Of a stretch of DNA of 32,869 nt, positions 8,080-32,523 are shown in pieces. The position numbers and the translations under genes were made by a program. The stretch's first letter is position 1; each line of letters begins with the position of its first letter. The notes beneath the pieces are model-generated. The model worked only from the letters and a program-made list of their open reading frames with translations. It did not search any database and had not been told where the DNA came from. The stretch covers positions 1-32,869 of the forward strand of contig JAPUEF010000350.1 of NCBI GenBank assembly GCA_027492655.1. Direction: 5' to 3'. Source of the stretch: Alphaproteobacteria bacterium. Lineage in GTDB: Bacteria > Pseudomonadota > Alphaproteobacteria > Micropepsales > Micropepsaceae.

Positions 8080-8979
8080 TCAGTGGCCTGCGGGCTTTTT
8101 CTCGCCGGCGGTGATGGCGAGCGCCACCCGGTCGACGGCGACGGGGCAGTTGTAATGCTCCGAGCGGGCGCAGTTCGGATTATAGAGATAGTTGAAGTCG
8201 ATGGTGACGGTCCTGGGCAGCGCGCCCTTGGCCACTTCGACATCGGTGTAGCGGCCGACGCCGTAGGTTTCCTTGCCCGTGGTGTCGTCCATTATGAAGG
8301 CGGCGAGGCTGTCGATTTCCTCCACCTTGTCGGTGCCGGCATACATCGGCAGGCGCGTCTCGACGCCCTTCAGCGTGAAGACGGCGTCGCCCGCGTAATA
8401 GAACTGCTTGTACCAGCCGCGCGAGGTCTGGAAGACCTTGGGCTCAAGCCTGGCGGCGGGTTCGAATTTCGCCTCGACCACGAACGAGGGATCGTAAGGG
8501 TAATAGTCGAGGCCGGTGAAGGCGGCGGCATCGGGATTGTCGTCGTTATAGACGGCGACGCGCATGCCGTCCTTGCCCGGCTCGATCTGCGCGACGCCGG
8601 CGCTGACGCGGATCTTCTCGCTGAGGGCATGTGGCGAGACGCCTTCGGCCACGAGATCCACGTCGCCGGCGAGGTCAGCGAATTTGGCGGACTTCAGGTC
8701 TTCGCCCGCCGTGACGCTGGGCACGCGGTTGGCCGGAGCGCTGAGCGACCAGTGATAGGCGCCGCCCGCCTGGGTCAGCCATGCGGTTTCGCCGGGCTTC
8801 AGATAGATCGCATCGTCGATCTTGAGGATGGCGGTCGGACGCCTGGCATAGGCCTCGTTGGCGTCCTCGATTTCCGACCTCCACTTGGTTTCGGCATTGG
8901 TCGGCATGGGCGGGGAGTCGGCGAACGCCGCCGCCGCGAGGGCGGTGGCGACGAGGGCGGCGGCGGTCAGGCGGCGCAT
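8080..8979 (-). CDS. Exported DUF1684-family protein
   Basis: A 299-aa protein with a clear N-terminal signal peptide (MRRLTAAALVATALAAAAFA, cleavage probably after residue 20), so it acts in the periplasm. The DUF1684 hallmark is at the C-terminus: YGVGRYTDVE, then TIDFNYLYNPNCARSEHYNCPV and a closing LAITAGEK. Two cysteines in that block are conserved in the family as I know it. DUF1684 proteins have no established biochemical role. The start at 8979 has GGAG upstream (GGAGTTTCCG). It is a single gene, divergent from the small exported protein at 9207 across 227 bp in which I see no further gene. Confidence 0.82.
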   Translation of the reverse strand: MRRLTAAALVATALAAAAFADSPPMPTNAETKWRSEIEDANEAYARRPTAILKIDDAIYLKPGETAWLTQAGGAYHWSLSAPANRVPSVTAGEDLKSAKFADLAGDVDLVAEGVSPHALSEKIRVSAGVAQIEPGKDGMRVAVYNDDNPDAAAFTGLDYYPYDPSFVVEAKFEPAARLEPKVFQTSRGWYKQFYYAGDAVFTLKGVETRLPMYAGTDKVEEIDSLAAFIMDDTTGKETYGVGRYTDVEVAKGALPRTVTIDFNYLYNPNCARSEHYNCPVAVDRVALAITAGEKKPAGH

Positions 8980-21808: not shown

Positions 21809-23419
21809 CTACATGCCGCCCGAGTGCCCCTGTGGTGGAATGGTAGACGCGGCGGATTCAAAATCCGTTGCCGCAAGGCGTGCTGGTTCGAGTCCGGCCA
21901 GGGGCACCACTTTGTTTTTCACGGTCTCTGCACCGAAAAGTCTAAACGGCAGACTGACTTGCGCGGTTCGATACCCTTCACCACGCGCATATTCTAATTG
22001 CCCCTGAAACGTGAGTGATATGACTGTCTGACGATCGATCAAACGGTCGGAAATCCAGAGATTCCACGGATTTTTTAAGAAGCCTAAGGCGGTTCGAGCA
22101 ACGTCCTGATAGCTGCTTGCTGGACTGCTTGAATCGGTGATCCGCTCGCGCATCACAGCCTTCTCGCCTTCCAGTTTTTCGATGCGGCTTTCGAACGCAG
22201 CGATGACGGACGGTGTGCTTGCACTCACAACGCGATCGAGCAGCTTGTCGGTCTCGTTTTCGATTTCGACCAGCTTTCTTTTCAGCGCGGCCACCCGCGC
22301 ATCTTCATGCGCAGAGCGCTTCGCCCAGATGTTTCCGAGCATGCGCTCCGCAACACCGAGTAAGCGCGGCGTTGGTTGAACTGATTTCAGCAGGTGTTCG
22401 AACTCGCCCTCAATCTGCTCCTTCTTGATCGACTTCCCGTAGGACGGGCATGATGCCTTTTGGCACACGTAATAGGCGTAAGACTTCGAACGCCCTTTAG
22501 ACCAACATGCCGTAAGCCGGTTTCCACATGTGCAGGTCACAAACCCACGCAGTGGAAAGTCATCGTTGAGGTTCTTGCGCATTGGCACACGATTGACGCC
22601 GTGCAAACGATCTTGAATTCGCTGCCACGTTTCGGCGCTGATGATCGGCGGATGGACGCCGCGTTGCATGTTGATGCCCCAATCAGGTTTGTGAATGAAG
22701 CCTGCATAAAATGGATTGTTCAAAAGCTCTTCGATATGGCTTGGCCGAACGATGCCAGTCTTGCTGCGCGGGAATAGTGGCTGATCTTGCAGCCAGTTTT
22801 TTACATCGACCTGACGATCAAAGCGGCCACTGGCATAACCTTCGAGCGCCTCCTTCACGACGAGCGCCACGTCTTGTTTGATGCGGACGACCTTGCCGCG
22901 ATAGCGCTCAGCCTCATAGAAGTAGCCGGGCGGGGTGTGAAAACACCAATAGCCATTGAGCATACGCCCGAGCATCCGGCTCTTGGTTGTCTCGACAATT
23001 TTGCGCCGTGTGTGTGCGCCAAAATTGACCAGAAGACGCTCGACGAAAATTTCGTCGGCACTGTTTCCGATCTTGATGGTCGTGGCTTCGAGGCTATTAC
23101 CGGACGCAAAGATGGCATCGCGGAGCGGCCAATAGACATCTTCATCGCGCCCGAGGCGGCTCAGATCGTCGATGATGACGACGATCCCCTTGCCACGATT
23201 TTTCTTCAAGAAGGCGAACAGCAGATGAAGTTCTGCGCGATTGCTCGTGCTGCCTGTGACATCGTCATGGAATGCACGCAGCACATGGTAGTTTCGGCGA
23301 GCGGCATACTCACGGCAGATGCGTTCTTGTGAATCGAGACCGTTCCCCTCACTTTTTTGCTTAGGGTCGGAAACGCGGCAGTAAATCACTGCCTCTTTGA
23401 TCGTCTCTTCGATACTCAC
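21809..23419 (-). CDS. Large serine recombinase (site-specific integrase)
   Basis: 536 aa. The N-terminal resolvase domain has the nucleophile Ser17 in VIYCRVSDPKQ and the arginine-rich active-site stretch IDDLSRLGRDEDVY. A recombinase domain follows (HTPPGYFYEAERYRG to LLNNPFYAGFIH), then a zinc ribbon (FVTCTCGNRL with VCQKASCPSYGK), a coiled coil (about residues 375-430) and a short tail. It would catalyse integration and excision of the island. The start is a GTG at 23419 with only a weak ribosome site. The last 30 or so residues (PLAGLEPARLAATDFE onward) are encoded by the antisense strand of tRNA-Leu, so the C-terminus crosses the integration junction. It is 46 bp behind the 92-aa gene and probably cotranscribed. 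Confidence 0.9.
   Translation of the reverse strand: MSIEETIKEAVIYCRVSDPKQKSEGNGLDSQERICREYAARRNYHVLRAFHDDVTGSTSNRAELHLLFAFLKKNRGKGIVVIIDDLSRLGRDEDVYWPLRDAIFASGNSLEATTIKIGNSADEIFVERLLVNFGAHTRRKIVETTKSRMLGRMLNGYWCFHTPPGYFYEAERYRGKVVRIKQDVALVVKEALEGYASGRFDRQVDVKNWLQDQPLFPRSKTGIVRPSHIEELLNNPFYAGFIHKPDWGINMQRGVHPPIISAETWQRIQDRLHGVNRVPMRKNLNDDFPLRGFVTCTCGNRLTACWSKGRSKSYAYYVCQKASCPSYGKSIKKEQIEGEFEHLLKSVQPTPRLLGVAERMLGNIWAKRSAHEDARVAALKRKLVEIENETDKLLDRVVSASTPSVIAAFESRIEKLEGEKAVMRERITDSSSPASSYQDVARTALGFLKNPWNLWISDRLIDRQTVISLTFQGQLEYARGEGYRTAQVSLPFRLFGAETVKNKVVPLAGLEPARLAATDFESAASTIPPQGHSGGM
21826..21909 (+). tRNA. tRNA-Leu (anticodon CAA)
   Basis: The acceptor stem GCCCCTG (21826-21832) pairs fully with CAGGGGC (21899-21905), followed by discriminator A and an encoded CCA (21907-21909). 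The anticodon arm is GCGGA-TTCAAAA-TCCGT, giving anticodon CAA (reads UUG). TGGTAGACGC is the D-arm part and GGTTCGAGTCC the T arm. The long variable arm (TGCCGCAAGGCG) is typical of class II leucine tRNAs. Its 3' end abuts the island, and the recombinase frame runs across it in antisense. Confidence 0.95.
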
Positions 23420-24653: not shown

Positions 24654-24746
24654 CTAGAATATTTTTGCATATCCGGTCAGCTTCCAGACGAGCATAAACA
24701 GGAAGATGGCAACAGCGGCGAAGAGAAAGATCGTCTCTTTCTTCAT
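24654..24746 (-). CDS. 30-aa single-span membrane peptide coupled to nhaA
   Basis: ATG 24746 overlaps the nhaA stop as ATGA, and the frame runs 30 codons to TAG 24654. The peptide begins [20 protein letters not shown] and ends [10 protein letters not shown]: charged start, about 20 hydrophobic residues, then W-K, a classic one-helix membrane peptide. No homologue is recalled. Translational coupling and a clean membrane-helix composition argue that it is a real gene and possibly a small subunit or regulator of the antiporter, comparable in layout to KdpF or CydX in their operons. Confidence 0.62.
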
Positions 24747-25993
24747 AATGCTGCACGCTTCGGCTTGAGCAGCAGGATCGCGCCGACAATGGCCGAGGCA
24801 ATTGATCCAATCAGAACGCCCAATTTTGTTTCGTCTTGTAAGACGGGACTACTCTCAAACGCGAGAAGGCCGATGAATAGGCTCATGGTGAAGCCAACCC
24901 CGCACAGAACGGAAACGCCATAGAGCTGCCGCCAGCTTGCGTGTGCGGGCAGCTCCGCAAATCCCATGCGGATGACGGCGGCAGCGAAAGCGAACACACC
25001 AATTTGCTTTCCCACAAACAGGCCGAGGGCCACGCCGAGAGGTACAGGGTCGGCAAGCTGGGTGAGCGACATTCCGGAGAAGGACACGCCCGCATTGGCA
25101 AAGCCGAACACAGGCACGATCAGGAACGTCACCCACGGAGCAATGCCGTGTTCGAGGATGTGCAACGGCGAATGTGCGTCGTCTGGCTTCGCGGGGCTGG
25201 CTCGCAGCGGAATACAAAATGCGAGCGCGACGCCTGCAAGAGTGGCGTGGACGCCTGATTGTAAAACGAAGAACCAAAGTGCGCCCCCTAAAGTCAGATA
25301 GGGCCACAGGCTCATGATGCGCAGACGGTTCAAGGCGATGAGTGCAACCAGCACAATTGCGGCCGCGCCAAGCGCGAGGGCATTGAGCGAGGCGGTGTAG
25401 AAAAGCGCGATGATGATCACCGCGCCCAGATCATCGATAATCGCAAGCGCGGTCAGAAAGACGCGCAGCGTCATCGGGACGCGCGGCCCCAGCAGCGACA
25501 TGACGCCAAGCGCGAAGGCAATGTCTGTGGCGGCCGGAATCGCCCAGCCTTTAGGCTGGCCGCCCTCGCCCATGTTGAATGCGAGGAATACGAAAGCGGG
25601 AACCGCCATTCCACCGAGCGCGGCAAAGCCGGGCAAAATCCGGCGAGGCCATGTTGAGAGCTGGCCGTCTAAAACCTCGCGTTTGATTTCGAGGCCGACC
25701 ATCAGGAAGAACACGGCCATCAAGCCGTCGTTGATCCAATGCAGGATCGACAGGCCGCCGACATAGAGATGCAGGCTCTCAAAATACGCCGCGCTGATGG
25801 GGGAATTCGCAATGACGAGCGCGAGCGCTGCGGCGACCATGAGGACAATTCCGCCCGAGGCAGAGTTGTCCAAGAAAGCGCGGATCAGAGAAACAGGGCG
25901 TTGCTGGTTCGGCTGCACAGGGATGACCCGCCTTCCAAAAAAGGTTTCGACATCTCCGTGGATTTTGGGGTGCACCCAAGGCGCACGCAGCAC
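24743..25993 (-). CDS. nhaA: Na+/H+ antiporter NhaA
   Basis: Exchanges cytoplasmic Na+ (or Li+) for protons across the inner membrane. From GTG 25993 the protein is 416 aa; E. coli NhaA is 388. The ion-binding aspartate pair is in [21 protein letters not shown] and the helix IV aspartate in [38 protein letters not shown] marks the first membrane segment and [14 protein letters not shown] a late one. The first 25 residues (to GRRVIP) are not NhaA-like; an internal GTG at 25918 would give a more normal start and make the upstream part an untranslated leader. A 30-aa membrane peptide is coupled downstream. It is carried on the island, so it may add salt or pH tolerance. Confidence 0.92.
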
Positions 25994-26457: not shown

Positions 26458-27642
26458 TTAAGTGCTGGAAGTTTTTTTCAAGGACGCCGACGCAGGATCG
26501 TATGCGTATCCCGTAATCGATCCGTCCTTGATCCGCTCGACGGCTTCATCGATCGCCTGGAGCGGCACCAAAAACCATTCGCGCGGTTTCACAGGCTGGC
26601 CGAACCGGTCGGGGATGGTGAGATCAAGCTGCACCGCCCCGAACAGCCTGTGAAATATCTTCTCAAGGCGCGTCCGGTTGATGTTGAAGAGCTTGTAAGT
26701 CGCGACAACCTCAACATCCGACAGAAGATATGTCGCATCATGCGCCGCATTCGCGATCCGCGCCTCCACCGCGCCGCCCGTCACCCCGATCTTGTGGATG
26801 ATGCTCCGGTGCTCGGCAACAGTGGGGTGCTGCGAATGACTTCGCAGAACGTAGATCGTCCCGCTCGCCAGATCGTCGGCTTCTTGCGCGCCGCCAAAGA
26901 GCGGCCCCGCCGATGGGTCCGTGATGCGCCGTCCCGCCTCGTCCTTATGAAGCGATCGCTGGAGCGAGCGCATCAGCAAGTTGCTCTCGGTTCCATTCGA
27001 AAACACCACGCGCAGGCGTGCATCGGTTCGCCCTTGCGCATTCGAATACACCTCACCCATCTCGGCGACGTAAGCCGTCTGACCGCCGACAATGAACCAG
27101 CTTCCAGGACGGATTTCGGCTTTGAGTTCGAACGGGCGGGTTTGCCGCACGCCGGTATCGATCTCGCGTTGCACCTGATCGAAGAGCGGCTTGAACCGCG
27201 CAAAATCAGGGCATGGCGTGCGGTTGGCGATCTCTTCGGCGGCGCGGCGTTCCTCGCGGCTGGAGACGTGCTTTAGAACCGTGATGTCGGTTTCCGTGAC
27301 ATCGTCAACACCAAGCTCTGCGAGCAATGCGTCGTCTTCTAGTTCCTCGCCCTCGCTTGCAGGAGATGCGCCGGTCAGAAGGCCGTGCACGTCCAGCTCG
27401 GCGAGCAGAGTTTGCGCCTCGGGAAGCTTGCGGATTTGATCGAGCCGCACGGCATAGAGCCGTTCGAAGATATCCCGTCCCTCGCCATGGAGCGGCGCGC
27501 GGCCATGCTCTTCGTGAAAGCGAAGAATATCTTCGAAGCCCGCAATGATCCGCTCTTCGCGCGGCGTGTGAGAGCGTGCCTTTTGCGGCTCGATCGTCGC
27601 GCCGAGTTCGGCCAGCAATTCGTCGTCTGTTAAATCAACCAT
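26458..27642 (-). CDS. GIY-YIG nuclease-family protein of the methyltransferase-helicase operon
   Basis: 394 aa from ATG 27642, overlapping the helicase stop by 8 bp. The C-terminal GIY-YIG domain (about residues 257-370, T5orf172/MUG113-like) shows GTIYVLRS as GIY and HKIGVTGG as YIG, then VEARIANA with the conserved Arg and RTRLEKIFHRLF with the metal-binding Glu; PREWFLVPL follows. The N-terminal half has a short repeated D-D-x-L-L-A-E-L-G element (residues 6-14 and 103-111, plus a degenerate copy at 76-83) and an HGRAP block (46-50). It is probably the nuclease or a DNA-nicking partner of the operon; whether catalysis is intact cannot be judged by eye alone. Confidence 0.82.
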   Translation of the reverse strand: MVDLTDDELLAELGATIEPQKARSHTPREERIIAGFEDILRFHEEHGRAPLHGEGRDIFERLYAVRLDQIRKLPEAQTLLAELDVHGLLTGASPASEGEELEDDALLAELGVDDVTETDITVLKHVSSREERRAAEEIANRTPCPDFARFKPLFDQVQREIDTGVRQTRPFELKAEIRPGSWFIVGGQTAYVAEMGEVYSNAQGRTDARLRVVFSNGTESNLLMRSLQRSLHKDEAGRRITDPSAGPLFGGAQEADDLASGTIYVLRSHSQHPTVAEHRSIIHKIGVTGGAVEARIANAAHDATYLLSDVEVVATYKLFNINRTRLEKIFHRLFGAVQLDLTIPDRFGQPVKPREWFLVPLQAIDEAVERIKDGSITGYAYDPASASLKKTSST

Positions 27643-29722
27643 TGGCGGTCTTCGCTGCGCGGTAACGCGCAAGTGCCGCCACGCCTTCGGCCAGTTTCTT
27701 CTCCCAGGCATCTTGGGAGGTGATGTCCGGCGCACGGCCACGCTCTTGCTTGAAACGAAGAGCCCGAACGGCAAGCTCGCGCGCTTCCTCGTAAGGAATG
27801 CTCACACGCTTGGCCGCGATCGCCGCCTGCACCTGGCGCAGGGTCTTTTCATCCATGGCCTTGCCGAGGACGGCATAGGCCGCATCGAACGGATTGATCT
27901 TGTCGATCATGTCGATATCCAGATCGCGCACATCCATGGCGATCTGGCGCACCCCATCCAGCAAAGCCGTGTTACCGCGCTGATCTCCGGTGCCGGTATC
28001 GATGCCGCTCGCAAGTTCCTTGGCGCGCTGGGTGAGGTTCAATGCCGCGATCGCATGCTGCCGGATCGCTTCCTGATCCGTTTCGCTCAAATCGGGATAA
28101 CGCTCGCGCACAATCTTGCCCATGCGCGCCTGCGTTAGCTCTTCGGGCAGAGTATTTTCACGATCAAAGAGACCGCGCTCCAGTGCCGTTTTATCTTGCA
28201 CGAACGCCGTGATGACCTCGTTCAAATCCTCTTTGCAGATGCGGGTCGCTTCCGGCGTCTCCGGCGTCACCAGCCCCTTGATCTCAAAATGGAATTGGCC
28301 GGTCTCTTCGTTGAAGCCGACATTTGTCTTGCCTTCTTCGTAGCCCTTCTCGCCGTAATCGAAGCCTGGCTTCGCGCCGGAATCTTTGGGTGTAAATTCA
28401 AAGCGCGGCGCAAGCACCTGCTCCATGAGAAGGCTGGCAGCGATCGCTTTGAGCGTATCGTTGATCGCATCGACCACCAGAGCTTCCGCCGCATCCGGCT
28501 CTGCAATCAAATTGGTGAAGCGTGCCCGCTCCTTGCCTGGCGCATCGCGGGTCGCGCGGCCAATGATCTGGATGACTTCCGTCAGGCTGGAGCGATAGCC
28601 GACCGTGAGCGCGTGCTCGCACCAAATCCAGTCGAAGCCTTCTTTGGCCATGCCCAGCGCGATGATGATATCGACATGATCGCGGTTGTTCTTCTGGGAC
28701 GGGTCTTTGAGCGAGGCCGCAACCTTGTCGCGCTTGGCCGGATCATCATCAACAAGGTCTGCAACCTTGATGACGCGCCCGCCAGCGATTTCGATCATGT
28801 GGAAGCCGGTCGCGGGGTCGATGCCCTTCCAGGTGCCAAGAGATTCCATGATCTCATCGACTTCCTTGTGCTTGTCCTTGGTGCTCTCTTTCGAGTTCAC
28901 ATTCGGAATGTGCACGATCGTTTTGATCGAAGGATCGAGCACCTTCATGATCGCGTCGAGATATCGCCCCGTATAGAAGAAGTAACCGATATCGAGCGAC
29001 TTCAGATGTTCATAGCCATTCAGCTGCTCATAGTAGGTATAAGTGACGGTGACGAACTTCGCTTCGTCGGATGGTGCGAGAACTGCCTCCGCATCGCCTC
29101 TGAAGTAAGATCCCGTCATCGCGACCAGATGCACCTTGTCGCGGACGATGAACTGGCCGAGCTGCGCGCCAAGCCGGTTGTCAGGATTGCTGCTGACATG
29201 GTGGAACTCGTCCACCGCAATCAGGCGGTTGTCGAACGCCTCAACGCCCAGCTCATCGACGGCAAAGCGGAACGTCGCATGGGTGCAGACTAAAACCTCA
29301 TCGTCGCTCGCCAGAAACTCGCCGACCGCCTTGACCTTTGATTTCGCGACCTTCGGCTCGTCAATGCCAGGCGCATTGCACAGATTCCATTGCGGCTTCA
29401 CTGTCCAATCATAGGGGAAGCCGTTCGCGCTCAGCTTTTCATCGGCAAAGCTGCCGCCGATCGAACGCTCCGGCACGACGATGATCGCTTGTTTGATGCC
29501 CTGATTGCGCAGCTTATCCAGCGCGATGAACATCAAAGCGCGGGACTTGCCTGATGCCGGTGGCGATTTGATGAGCAGATATTGCTCGCCGCGCCGCGCA
29601 TAGGCCCGCTCTTGCATCACTCGCATGCCCATGGCGTTTGCCTTGGTCGATGCGCCGGTGCGTGCTGTCGTGATGGACACGGACGGGATCGTCCGCTCGT
29701 TCGTCGGATTGTCGGTCGTCAT
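27635..29722 (-). CDS. SF2 DEAD/DEAH-type helicase of the methyltransferase operon
   Basis: 695 aa. The Walker A motif is SPPASGKS (residues 53-60), motif II is D-E-F-H at 171-174 (LIAVDEFHHVSS), motif III is MTGSY near 207, and motif VI is QIIGRATRD near 385. This architecture matches helicases of type I/III restriction systems, but no PD-(D/E)xK endonuclease block is visible at the C-terminus. The C-terminus instead ends in ALRFKQERGRAPDITSQDAWEKKLAEG, resembling a stretch in the downstream GIY-YIG protein. ATG 29722 overlaps the original methyltransferase stop (ATGA), and its own stop overlaps the GIY-YIG start. It probably translocates on or unwinds DNA for the system. Confidence 0.88.
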   Translation of the reverse strand: MTTDNPTNERTIPSVSITTARTGASTKANAMGMRVMQERAYARRGEQYLLIKSPPASGKSRALMFIALDKLRNQGIKQAIIVVPERSIGGSFADEKLSANGFPYDWTVKPQWNLCNAPGIDEPKVAKSKVKAVGEFLASDDEVLVCTHATFRFAVDELGVEAFDNRLIAVDEFHHVSSNPDNRLGAQLGQFIVRDKVHLVAMTGSYFRGDAEAVLAPSDEAKFVTVTYTYYEQLNGYEHLKSLDIGYFFYTGRYLDAIMKVLDPSIKTIVHIPNVNSKESTKDKHKEVDEIMESLGTWKGIDPATGFHMIEIAGGRVIKVADLVDDDPAKRDKVAASLKDPSQKNNRDHVDIIIALGMAKEGFDWIWCEHALTVGYRSSLTEVIQIIGRATRDAPGKERARFTNLIAEPDAAEALVVDAINDTLKAIAASLLMEQVLAPRFEFTPKDSGAKPGFDYGEKGYEEGKTNVGFNEETGQFHFEIKGLVTPETPEATRICKEDLNEVITAFVQDKTALERGLFDRENTLPEELTQARMGKIVRERYPDLSETDQEAIRQHAIAALNLTQRAKELASGIDTGTGDQRGNTALLDGVRQIAMDVRDLDIDMIDKINPFDAAYAVLGKAMDEKTLRQVQAAIAAKRVSIPYEEARELAVRALRFKQERGRAPDITSQDAWEKKLAEGVAALARYRAAKTANG

Positions 29723-29967
29723 GCGGCCTTCCTCCCTTTCTTTTTTGTGGGTTTGGGCTGATTGGCCGTCATCTTGGTGTAGAGATCGAAGAGCTTCTCC
29801 AGCCGTTCAGTGTCGTTCCTGAATCGCCGCCCGATGTAGATGCGCTCCAGCACCTCGTCGTTTTCGTCATGCGCGCGGCGCAGATCGTCCGGCATCTCTT
29901 CGGGGTAGTATAGATCGGCGATCGTCTTCGGGAAAATCGCCACGAGACCGAGCAAGAAATTGACATC
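29719..29967 (-). pseudogene. Detached C-terminal 82 codons of the methyltransferase
   Basis: In the same frame as the methyltransferase and directly after its TGA stop, 82 codons stay open to the TGA at 29719. The translation, DVNFLLGLVAIFPKTIADLYYP followed by DLRRAHDENDEVLERIYIGRRF and NDTERLEKLFDLYTKMTA, is the recognisable C-terminal end of MmeI-like methyltransferases (I-A-D-L-Y, A-H-x-x-N-D-E-V-L-E, F-x-N-D-T-E-R-L-E-x-L-F-x-L-Y). The natural stop overlaps the helicase start. Without readthrough or reinitiation it would not be made. Confidence 0.8.
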
Positions 29968-32523
29968 TCACCGCGGGAGATCCGCATTGGAATGGTCGGT
30001 GAGCTTGGGAAGAGGAAATGTGTTCCATCCGAGGGTGTTGGAATACCGGTACCGCGTCTCCAACCTGCCGCACACCGCCGCAATCCAAGCAAGATGGATT
30101 TTCGATCCGATGATAGACAGTGTCCACAGGGGCGCATCGTATAAAGCGAATGCTGAGTTGCTGACTATCGACCTCGGCGGTAGTAGACCGACAGGAAGAT
30201 AGCCCCTTCGTTCCGAACTAACGGCTGGAACAATTAGACTCCAACGCGTTCCAACGCCCTGGATCTGTCTGAACTTGTGAGGGTAACGAGCGGACGGACG
30301 GGTTTCAGCAGCTTTGCTTTCACTACGGAAAGCTGCAACGCGTTCGAAGCGCAGTCGCAGAGCTTCATGGCTTCGCGCGAGTTCTACATCCTCGTCCTCG
30401 ACCCAGATGCAATGTCGCTCCAAACCCTTGATGTACTCGGCTCCACCAAAATAGGGCCGCATGAACCTACGAGAACTTGGATCAGCTCTCAGGACTTCAT
30501 CCCGCTCGTGGCGAGTTAGAAGCAATCCACCACCATCGGTAGGTTTGTTCCCCCACAGCATTGCAGCTCGGCCATCTGGGGCTTGTGACGCAGTCGTGAC
30601 TATTACGTCAGTCGTTGGTGATAGGTACGCGTTAATTTCAGATACGGTTTTCTCTTGGAAAACCCCATCCTTGTCCTCGTAGAAAAGCTTGCGTCGTCGC
30701 GTGTGGTCATTACTGATCGCTACGATCGCAACGGTAACGCCAGCGTTGTGGCTCGCTAAGTTGGCCCACTTAAACGAGACGTGTGCAAATGTGATTTGAA
30801 AGCCGCTGCTAGCGATCAGCGGCCAAAGTATCGGCACTTGCTCGCCCTGACAGACCGAATTGGTGGTGACAAAGGCTGCAGTTACCTTTGAGCTTCGCCC
30901 AAAATCTGCAGCCTTCATGAACCACGCGCTGACGTAGTCCAGAGACTTCCACGCTTTTGTGCGTGTATCAAAAATGGAGGCCAGTTCTGCTTTTTGCTCT
31001 TGGGATTGCCACGTAAACCCGAGATACGGGGGGTTCCCGCAGATGTAGGTTTCGCCTCCCTCATTCTCGAAATCGATCTGCGCTTGATCGAGTGGCGAGT
31101 TGAAGAGATCGTCCGCGTGTAATTTCACGCCGGTGCCAGTAGGAGGACAAACCGATAGCCAATCGAGACCGAGCGCGTTGCCGCAGGTAATCCAGTTATC
31201 CGCATTGAGTGGTAAGAACTCGGCTAGTGCTTCTTTCTGTCCCCGATACAGAACGTCGCATTGATACTCTGCGATGATCAAAGCAAGCCTCGCGATTTCC
31301 GCAGGAAAATTGCGAAGCTCAATTCCCCGAAAACTCGTGAGCGGTATGTCAGATCGACGCTCTGACTCATCTCGCCGTTTGTTGATCTCAGCTTCGATGG
31401 CCCGCATTTCTTTGTAGGCGATGACGAGGAAGTTGCCCGAACCGCAGGCCGGATCGAACACACGTATTTTCGACATGCGCTTGCGGAGATTCAGCAGCGC
31501 ACGTCCGTTGTCGCCAGCTGCTTCCAGCTGTTCTCGTAGATCGTCGAGGAAGAGTGGATTTAGAACTTTCAGGATGTTCGGCACGCTCGTGTAGTGCATG
31601 CCGAGCGATCCACGCTCTTCGTCTTCGGCGACGGCCTGGATCATCGATCCGAAAATGTCGGGGTTGATCTGCTGCCAGTCGAGCTCGCCAGCGCGCAATA
31701 GGTATGAGCGCGCCATGCGGCTGAACTTCGGGCAATCGATCTCGCCTGAGAACAGGTGGCCGTTCACGTAAGGAAACTTGTCCGCCCAGCCCTTGATGTT
31801 CGCCGCTTTGCGGTAGCGATCATCCGGCGTGCCGTTGTGTGTGGTCGGCGTGTCCATCGCGCGGAACAGCTCTGACAGCACTTCGTGCGTGTTGCCTGAT
31901 TGGCCATCGCTCATTGTCTCGATGGTGCGGGTGAAGATGTTGTTCTGAAATATCCCCGTATCTTCGGCGAAGAAGCAGAAGATCAGCCGCGCCATGAAGT
32001 GGTTGAGCATGGGCCTCTTCTCGGCAGATGCCCAATCGGGATTGTCCTTGAGAAGCTCGACATAGAGTTTGTTCAGGCGTCCCGTCGCCTTCACGTCGAT
32101 CGGGTTGTTCTTGATCTCCTTGACCGTGGTGATGCCAGCCAGCGGCAGGAAGAACCCGAAATGCTCCGCAAATTTCTCGAACGGGGTTGAGAGCGGCTCG
32201 CCGCTGATCAGGTCTTCGGCTTCAAGTGTTTTGCCATCCGTCGCCAGGATGAATTTCGCCTTGGCGGCGGTCGTCTTCGGGCTTTGGCGCAGAGCGGCGA
32301 GCGTCTCGTTGACCTTGCCTTCATCGCAGGTGGCGATGTGAATGTTGTTTCGCTGAAGAACGCCTTCTGCGATGTCCGACGAATTCGACGCGCCCGAGCG
32401 CAGCTTCCTGATCGTCGTGTCCTTGTTGTCGAACGCTTTCAAAAAGGCATAAGGGAACTCGGCGCGGTCAAATTCCTGCGCCGCCAGTTCCGATGCTGCT
32501 TCCTCGATTTCAACTGCGTTCAT
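29968..32523 (-). CDS. MmeI-like class I SAM-dependent DNA methyltransferase, cut short by in-frame TGA
   Basis: 851 aa as read; restoring the frame past the TGA gives about 934, the usual size for this family. It methylates adenine in DNA using S-adenosylmethionine. Motif I is VFDPACGSGNFLVIAY (about residue 355) and the catalytic N-P-P-Y is in YICGNPPYLGF (about residue 497). The helical spacer stretch LIFCFFAEDTGIF, then FGSMIQAVAEDEERGSLGMHYTS and ILKVLNPLFLDDL, are family markers; the target-recognition domain follows from about residue 650. The N-terminus (GASNSSDIAEGVLQRNNIHI) occupies the place of the MmeI nuclease, but no convincing D-x(n)-E-x-K set is visible. ATG 32523 heads the operon. 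Confidence 0.88.
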   Translation of the reverse strand: MNAVEIEEAASELAAQEFDRAEFPYAFLKAFDNKDTTIRKLRSGASNSSDIAEGVLQRNNIHIATCDEGKVNETLAALRQSPKTTAAKAKFILATDGKTLEAEDLISGEPLSTPFEKFAEHFGFFLPLAGITTVKEIKNNPIDVKATGRLNKLYVELLKDNPDWASAEKRPMLNHFMARLIFCFFAEDTGIFQNNIFTRTIETMSDGQSGNTHEVLSELFRAMDTPTTHNGTPDDRYRKAANIKGWADKFPYVNGHLFSGEIDCPKFSRMARSYLLRAGELDWQQINPDIFGSMIQAVAEDEERGSLGMHYTSVPNILKVLNPLFLDDLREQLEAAGDNGRALLNLRKRMSKIRVFDPACGSGNFLVIAYKEMRAIEAEINKRRDESERRSDIPLTSFRGIELRNFPAEIARLALIIAEYQCDVLYRGQKEALAEFLPLNADNWITCGNALGLDWLSVCPPTGTGVKLHADDLFNSPLDQAQIDFENEGGETYICGNPPYLGFTWQSQEQKAELASIFDTRTKAWKSLDYVSAWFMKAADFGRSSKVTAAFVTTNSVCQGEQVPILWPLIASSGFQITFAHVSFKWANLASHNAGVTVAIVAISNDHTRRRKLFYEDKDGVFQEKTVSEINAYLSPTTDVIVTTASQAPDGRAAMLWGNKPTDGGGLLLTRHERDEVLRADPSSRRFMRPYFGGAEYIKGLERHCIWVEDEDVELARSHEALRLRFERVAAFRSESKAAETRPSARYPHKFRQIQGVGTRWSLIVPAVSSERRGYLPVGLLPPRSIVSNSAFALYDAPLWTLSIIGSKIHLAWIAAVCGRLETRYRYSNTLGWNTFPLPKLTDHSNADLPR

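Follow-up and report, generated by a model that had tools for sequence, protein, structure and literature searches.

The window, by which we mean the whole stretch of 32,869 nucleotides analysed here, carries a methyltransferase gene that is cut short by an in-frame TGA. By its domains, the gene is classed as a broken member of the MmeI-like methyltransferase family of the DnmA/YeeA type. We consider a recent loss-of-function lesion in the cell to be the best reading, with a probability of roughly 0.55. On this account the DNA of the cell truly has the sequence of the window, and the truncated protein has lost its role. We infer a recent date for the lesion, since neither the tail past the stop nor the partner genes show decay. 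The most probable account is commonplace damage to a restriction cassette of a known kind, with an error in the draft assembly as a close rival. The locus looks like a damaged or misread copy of an already known cassette and not like a new genetic mechanism.

The frame opens on the minus strand at the ATG at 32523 and runs for 851 codons to the TGA at 29970–29968. Beyond it the frame is unchanged and stays open for 82 further codons, ending at the TGA at 29721–29719. This natural stop overlaps the helicase ATG (29722–29720) as ATGA. The original prediction had described this in-frame TGA without a shift, the 82-codon tail and the ATGA overlap, and all of these were confirmed in the sequence. 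The features are as follows.

29968..32523, minus strand: truncated methyltransferase ORF, 851 aa, with MmeI_N, helical spacer, MTase domain (FDPACGSGNF, NPPY) and target recognition domain (TRD)
29926..29997, minus strand: altered patch, codons 843–866, core 852–866, with 8 of 12 near-invariant residues changed in 843–863, nearly all by transversion
29968..29970, minus strand: in-frame TGA at codon 852, where 39 of 41 homologues have Cys
29719..29967, minus strand: rest of the C-terminal helical bundle, left untranslated, with 82 codons and the natural stop; codons 867–920 match the family
29769..29966, minus strand: possible restart ATG one base past the TGA in a different frame, giving a meaningless 65-codon ORF; speculative and read from the sequence
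29731..29736, minus strand: GGGAGG, Shine-Dalgarno-like site of the helicase gene, 8 bases ahead of its ATG
27635..29722, minus strand: YeeB-type SF2 helicase, 695 aa, intact
26458..27642, minus strand: YeeC-type T5orf172/GIY-YIG protein, about 394 aa from an ATG overlapping the helicase end, intact

MmeI_N, MmeI_hel, MmeI_Mtase and MmeI_TRD were found in the 851-residue ORF, and MmeI_C was found only in the frame past the TGA. The methyltransferase matches the MmeI structure (PDB 5HR4) at 1.4e-127. Motif I of the MTase domain occupies the invariant columns F356–F365, and motif IV occupies N497–Y500. Inspection of motifs in the invariant and near-invariant columns of the first 100 residues gave no conserved ExK of a PD-(D/E)XK nuclease. 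The translated C-terminal helical bundle is absent, as the TGA removes it, but the domain is still recognisable in the DNA. The 82-codon tail matches the Pfam profile MmeI_C (9.7e-14) and the PADLOC type IIG profile (5.6e-17); it is the C-terminal domain of the family rather than a chance open frame, and the gene is thus a split gene. The only second copy found in the genome is a distant paralogue with 26% identity. A restart at the ATG just past the TGA is a speculative possibility, and its ORF finishes 46 bases ahead of the helicase ATG.

The gene was compared with 41 full-length homologues of 59–67% identity. The residue at the position of the stop is Cys in 39 of these, Ser in one and Thr in one, so Cys, one of the prior states suggested for this codon, is the usual residue in the family. 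Aligning homologues at this codon had been proposed as a check. None of the 41 ends there naturally; all run through the position, and the stop is therefore specific to the sequence of the window.

The stop does not stand alone. We defined near-invariant positions as those with at least 92% agreement among the homologues. In codons 843–863, 8 of 12 such positions depart from the family, compared with 14 of 354 in the rest of the protein (Fisher p 2e-8). Because the stretch was picked after the data had been seen, p-values are descriptive here, and the leave-one-out comparison gives the fairer picture. The largest 21-codon cluster of departures contains nine in the window protein, at the patch, and at most seven in any of the 41 homologues, elsewhere in the protein. 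Near-invariant bases in codons 843–873 show 12 transversions and one transition, against 613:616 across the homologues. The ancestral state at each changed base was inferred from the family, as searches of genomes, plasmids and viral contigs, and of 96 genomes from the source family, found no homologue above 67% identity. Eight residues of the patch (D848, L849, R851, L857, L858, A862, F864 and P865) still match the family, from which we take the patch to derive from the family sequence by substitution in place and not from foreign DNA. Downstream of the patch, codons 867–920 are clean and family-like. The structure model predicts a helix for codons 843–863, and the stop is predicted to fall within the first helix of the C-terminal bundle; confidence in the C-terminal part of this model is low (pLDDT under 50).

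These comparisons bear on the earlier proposal of a single nonsense change in an otherwise intact methyltransferase. The truncating stop stands, and the data support a gene that is otherwise intact. The single change is an incomplete description, because the stop is one of several changes in a local patch.

Other origins of the patch were tried and rejected. A pair of frameshifts is disfavoured, as a profile alignment that allows for frameshifts favours the unshifted reading at all realistic penalties and gapped DNA alignments gain little. Copying from elsewhere in the genome gave only chance matches of 14–26 bases (best E 0.38). An inversion of the patch was set aside because its reverse complement, checked by eye, yields no family-like peptide. 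A recombinant TRD with its junction at the patch was also considered; the GC3 dip over the TRD is present in nearly all homologues and so is not a sign of a fresh swap.

The sequence of events that we favour would begin with a recent local lesion in the methyltransferase of a DnmA-YeeB-YeeC-type cassette. A cluster of changes, most of them transversions, would have struck the first helix of the C-terminal bundle over about 15–24 codons, and one change of this cluster would have created the TGA. Translation would then halt past the target recognition domain and yield a protein of 851 residues that lacks the bundle, and the helicase could still start from its own ribosome site. Losing the methyltransferase is tolerable in the best-studied relative, since deletion of dnmA in B. 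subtilis causes no growth defect (PMC7261158). The clean tail, however, implies that the lesion is either recent or absent from the cell altogether. True decay should spread across the whole tail past the stop, yet codons 867–920 are clean, and so tight a cluster also resembles a bad stretch of consensus.

The same observations are therefore compatible with a sequence artefact, which we regard as a close rival, though less probable than a real lesion. A badly resolved or low-coverage stretch of the draft would contain several miscalled bases, one of them making the TGA, and the real enzyme would be normal with about 934 residues. The patch is tight with clean sequence on either side, its pattern is substitution-only and rich in transversions, and the tail, the helicase and the nuclease are all conserved. 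The draft assembly is fragmented, with 355 contigs and 10-N joins. Lone in-frame stops also occur in two more of its conserved genes, and internal stops in bacterial assemblies are often due to base miscalls at low coverage (PMC11017572). On the other hand, a dozen clustered wrong bases would be unusual for a consensus of overlapping short reads, and one of the two other stops, that in the arylsulfatase gene, is a lone change with no patch. Decay and sequence error, both among the options first listed for this locus, are thus the leading ones.

The two other genes are the clear further cases from a scan of about 0.95 Mb of the genome for lone in-frame stops within coding sequence. An rsmB-like rRNA methyltransferase gene (L140:5824, contig C141) has a TAG and is intact in relatives of the genus. 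An arylsulfatase gene (L207:12309, contig C60) has a TAG at a conserved Tyr, and an 86%-identical relative from the genus is intact. Both may be ordinary pseudogenes or miscalls.

Recoding of the stop, as selenocysteine or by programmed readthrough to a full-length protein, is very improbable. In its favour, relatives usually have Cys at this codon, which is also seen in many selenoprotein families, and the frame is open downstream of the stop. Against this, the genome (92% complete) gave none of the hallmarks of selenoproteins: selA was not found, the search for tRNA-Sec returned ordinary Ser and Leu tRNAs, and no SECIS-like hairpin follows the UGA, as the RNA past the stop is no more stably folded than shuffled sequences (z 0.03). 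Residues beyond the stop are altered too, and other genes of the window end with TGA. Readthrough, as raised in the original prediction, is accordingly unlikely. Phase-like inactivation finds no basis in the sequence, as the site contains no simple repeat.

The helicase and T5orf172/GIY-YIG genes are the first and second genes downstream of the methyltransferase in the window. With these neighbours, the locus is assigned by its sequence to the DnmA-YeeB-YeeC type of restriction cassette, made of an MmeI-like methyltransferase, an SF2 helicase and a T5orf172/GIY-YIG nuclease. Both partner genes are present in each of the 38 homologous loci whose downstream sequence is long enough. Departures from near-invariant positions are few in both (4 of 346 in the helicase and 1 of 113 in the nuclease). 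The suggested loss of translational coupling to the helicase goes too far. A strong Shine-Dalgarno site of its own is still present ahead of the helicase, and in 29 of the 38 loci the helicase lies 190–2515 bp from the methyltransferase, where coupling is impossible; loss of coupling is therefore not decisive by itself. Promoter and terminator scans around the stop gave nothing of interest above chance.

The methyltransferase gene belongs to a defence island. The cassette sits in a region of lower GC content (0.52–0.61, compared with about 0.66). A serine recombinase gene (21809–23419) overlaps with its 3′ end a tRNA-Leu (caa) on the opposite strand (21826–21909), where the GC content drops, and this overlap is the likely boundary of the island. 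An NhaA-type Na+/H+ antiporter gene (24743–25993) also lies within the low-GC island.

Broken copies are not rare in this methyltransferase family. A homologue from Candidatus Nitrotoga sp. HW29 (L034) has a single in-frame TAA at 8602–8604 that replaces the near-invariant Tyr of ADLYDP in the C-terminal bundle. A second homologue (L004) has one TAG near codon 576. A third (L007, G016:C39) has an in-frame deletion of about codons 366–696, by which the greater part of its MTase domain and some of its TRD are lost.

It is conceivable, though unlikely, that the truncated protein works. Its MTase domain and TRD would methylate, it would not dock with the helicase and nuclease for want of the bundle, and the cassette would be modification-only. 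M.TaqI, of the same gamma class, is active and has no C-terminal bundle (PMC4833311), and B. subtilis DnmA is an active methyltransferase in a cassette that does not restrict (PMC7261158, PMC9973331). Outside the patch the main ORF is undecayed, and the stop of Candidatus Nitrotoga arose independently in the same domain. However, two cases may be a coincidence, few parts of the family are as conserved as the bundle, its dispensability for folding or methylation is an assumption, and its role in docking is a guess. A broader idea, that truncation of the bundle is a recurring switch of DnmA-type cassettes to modification only, with an enzyme that methylates and cannot recruit helicase and nuclease, is slightly more doubtful still; two independent stops within the bundle hint at a pattern but are not enough to assert one.

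If the lesion is real, both loss of methylation and methylation without restriction are possible outcomes. Loss of the methyltransferase need not be lethal, because a Type I-like mode in which cutting depends on the methyltransferase has been suggested for the DnmA cassette, and because the dnmA deletion is harmless to growth (PMC7261158). Were the truncated form active, it would offer an easy way to study the link between DnmA-type methyltransferases and their helicase and nuclease, a link that is only proposed in the papers cited here. The locus also has a cautionary use: when an in-frame stop is met in a draft genome, its surroundings should be compared with relatives, and not the codon alone.

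Three known systems can be set beside the window. The Candidatus Nitrotoga locus is likewise a cassette whose methyltransferase has a single in-frame stop within the C-terminal bundle, while the remainder of that gene and the neighbouring helicase and nuclease genes are intact, but its stop lies 20 codons further on, at the Tyr of ADLYDP, with no surrounding patch. MmeI, a type IIL enzyme (PDB 5HR4, PMC4833311), likewise joins a spacer, a gamma-class N6-adenine MTase, a TRD and a C-terminal helical bundle on one chain, with the bundle at 826–919, past the TRD. It differs in having its own N-terminal PD-(D/E)XK nuclease, whereas the family of the window uses separate helicase and nuclease genes. 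The arrangement of the window is that of DnmA (YeeA)-YeeB-YeeC, described in B. subtilis and many other genomes (PMC7261158, PMC9973331), in which the gene of an MmeI-like methyltransferase that lacks the MmeI nuclease motif directly precedes the SF2 helicase and T5orf172/GIY-YIG genes. There, too, the cassette lies within a low-GC island with a recombinase, and the authors of that work called the B. subtilis cassette a restriction relic. The B. subtilis methyltransferase is intact and active, in contrast to that of the window with its in-frame stop and altered patch in the bundle.
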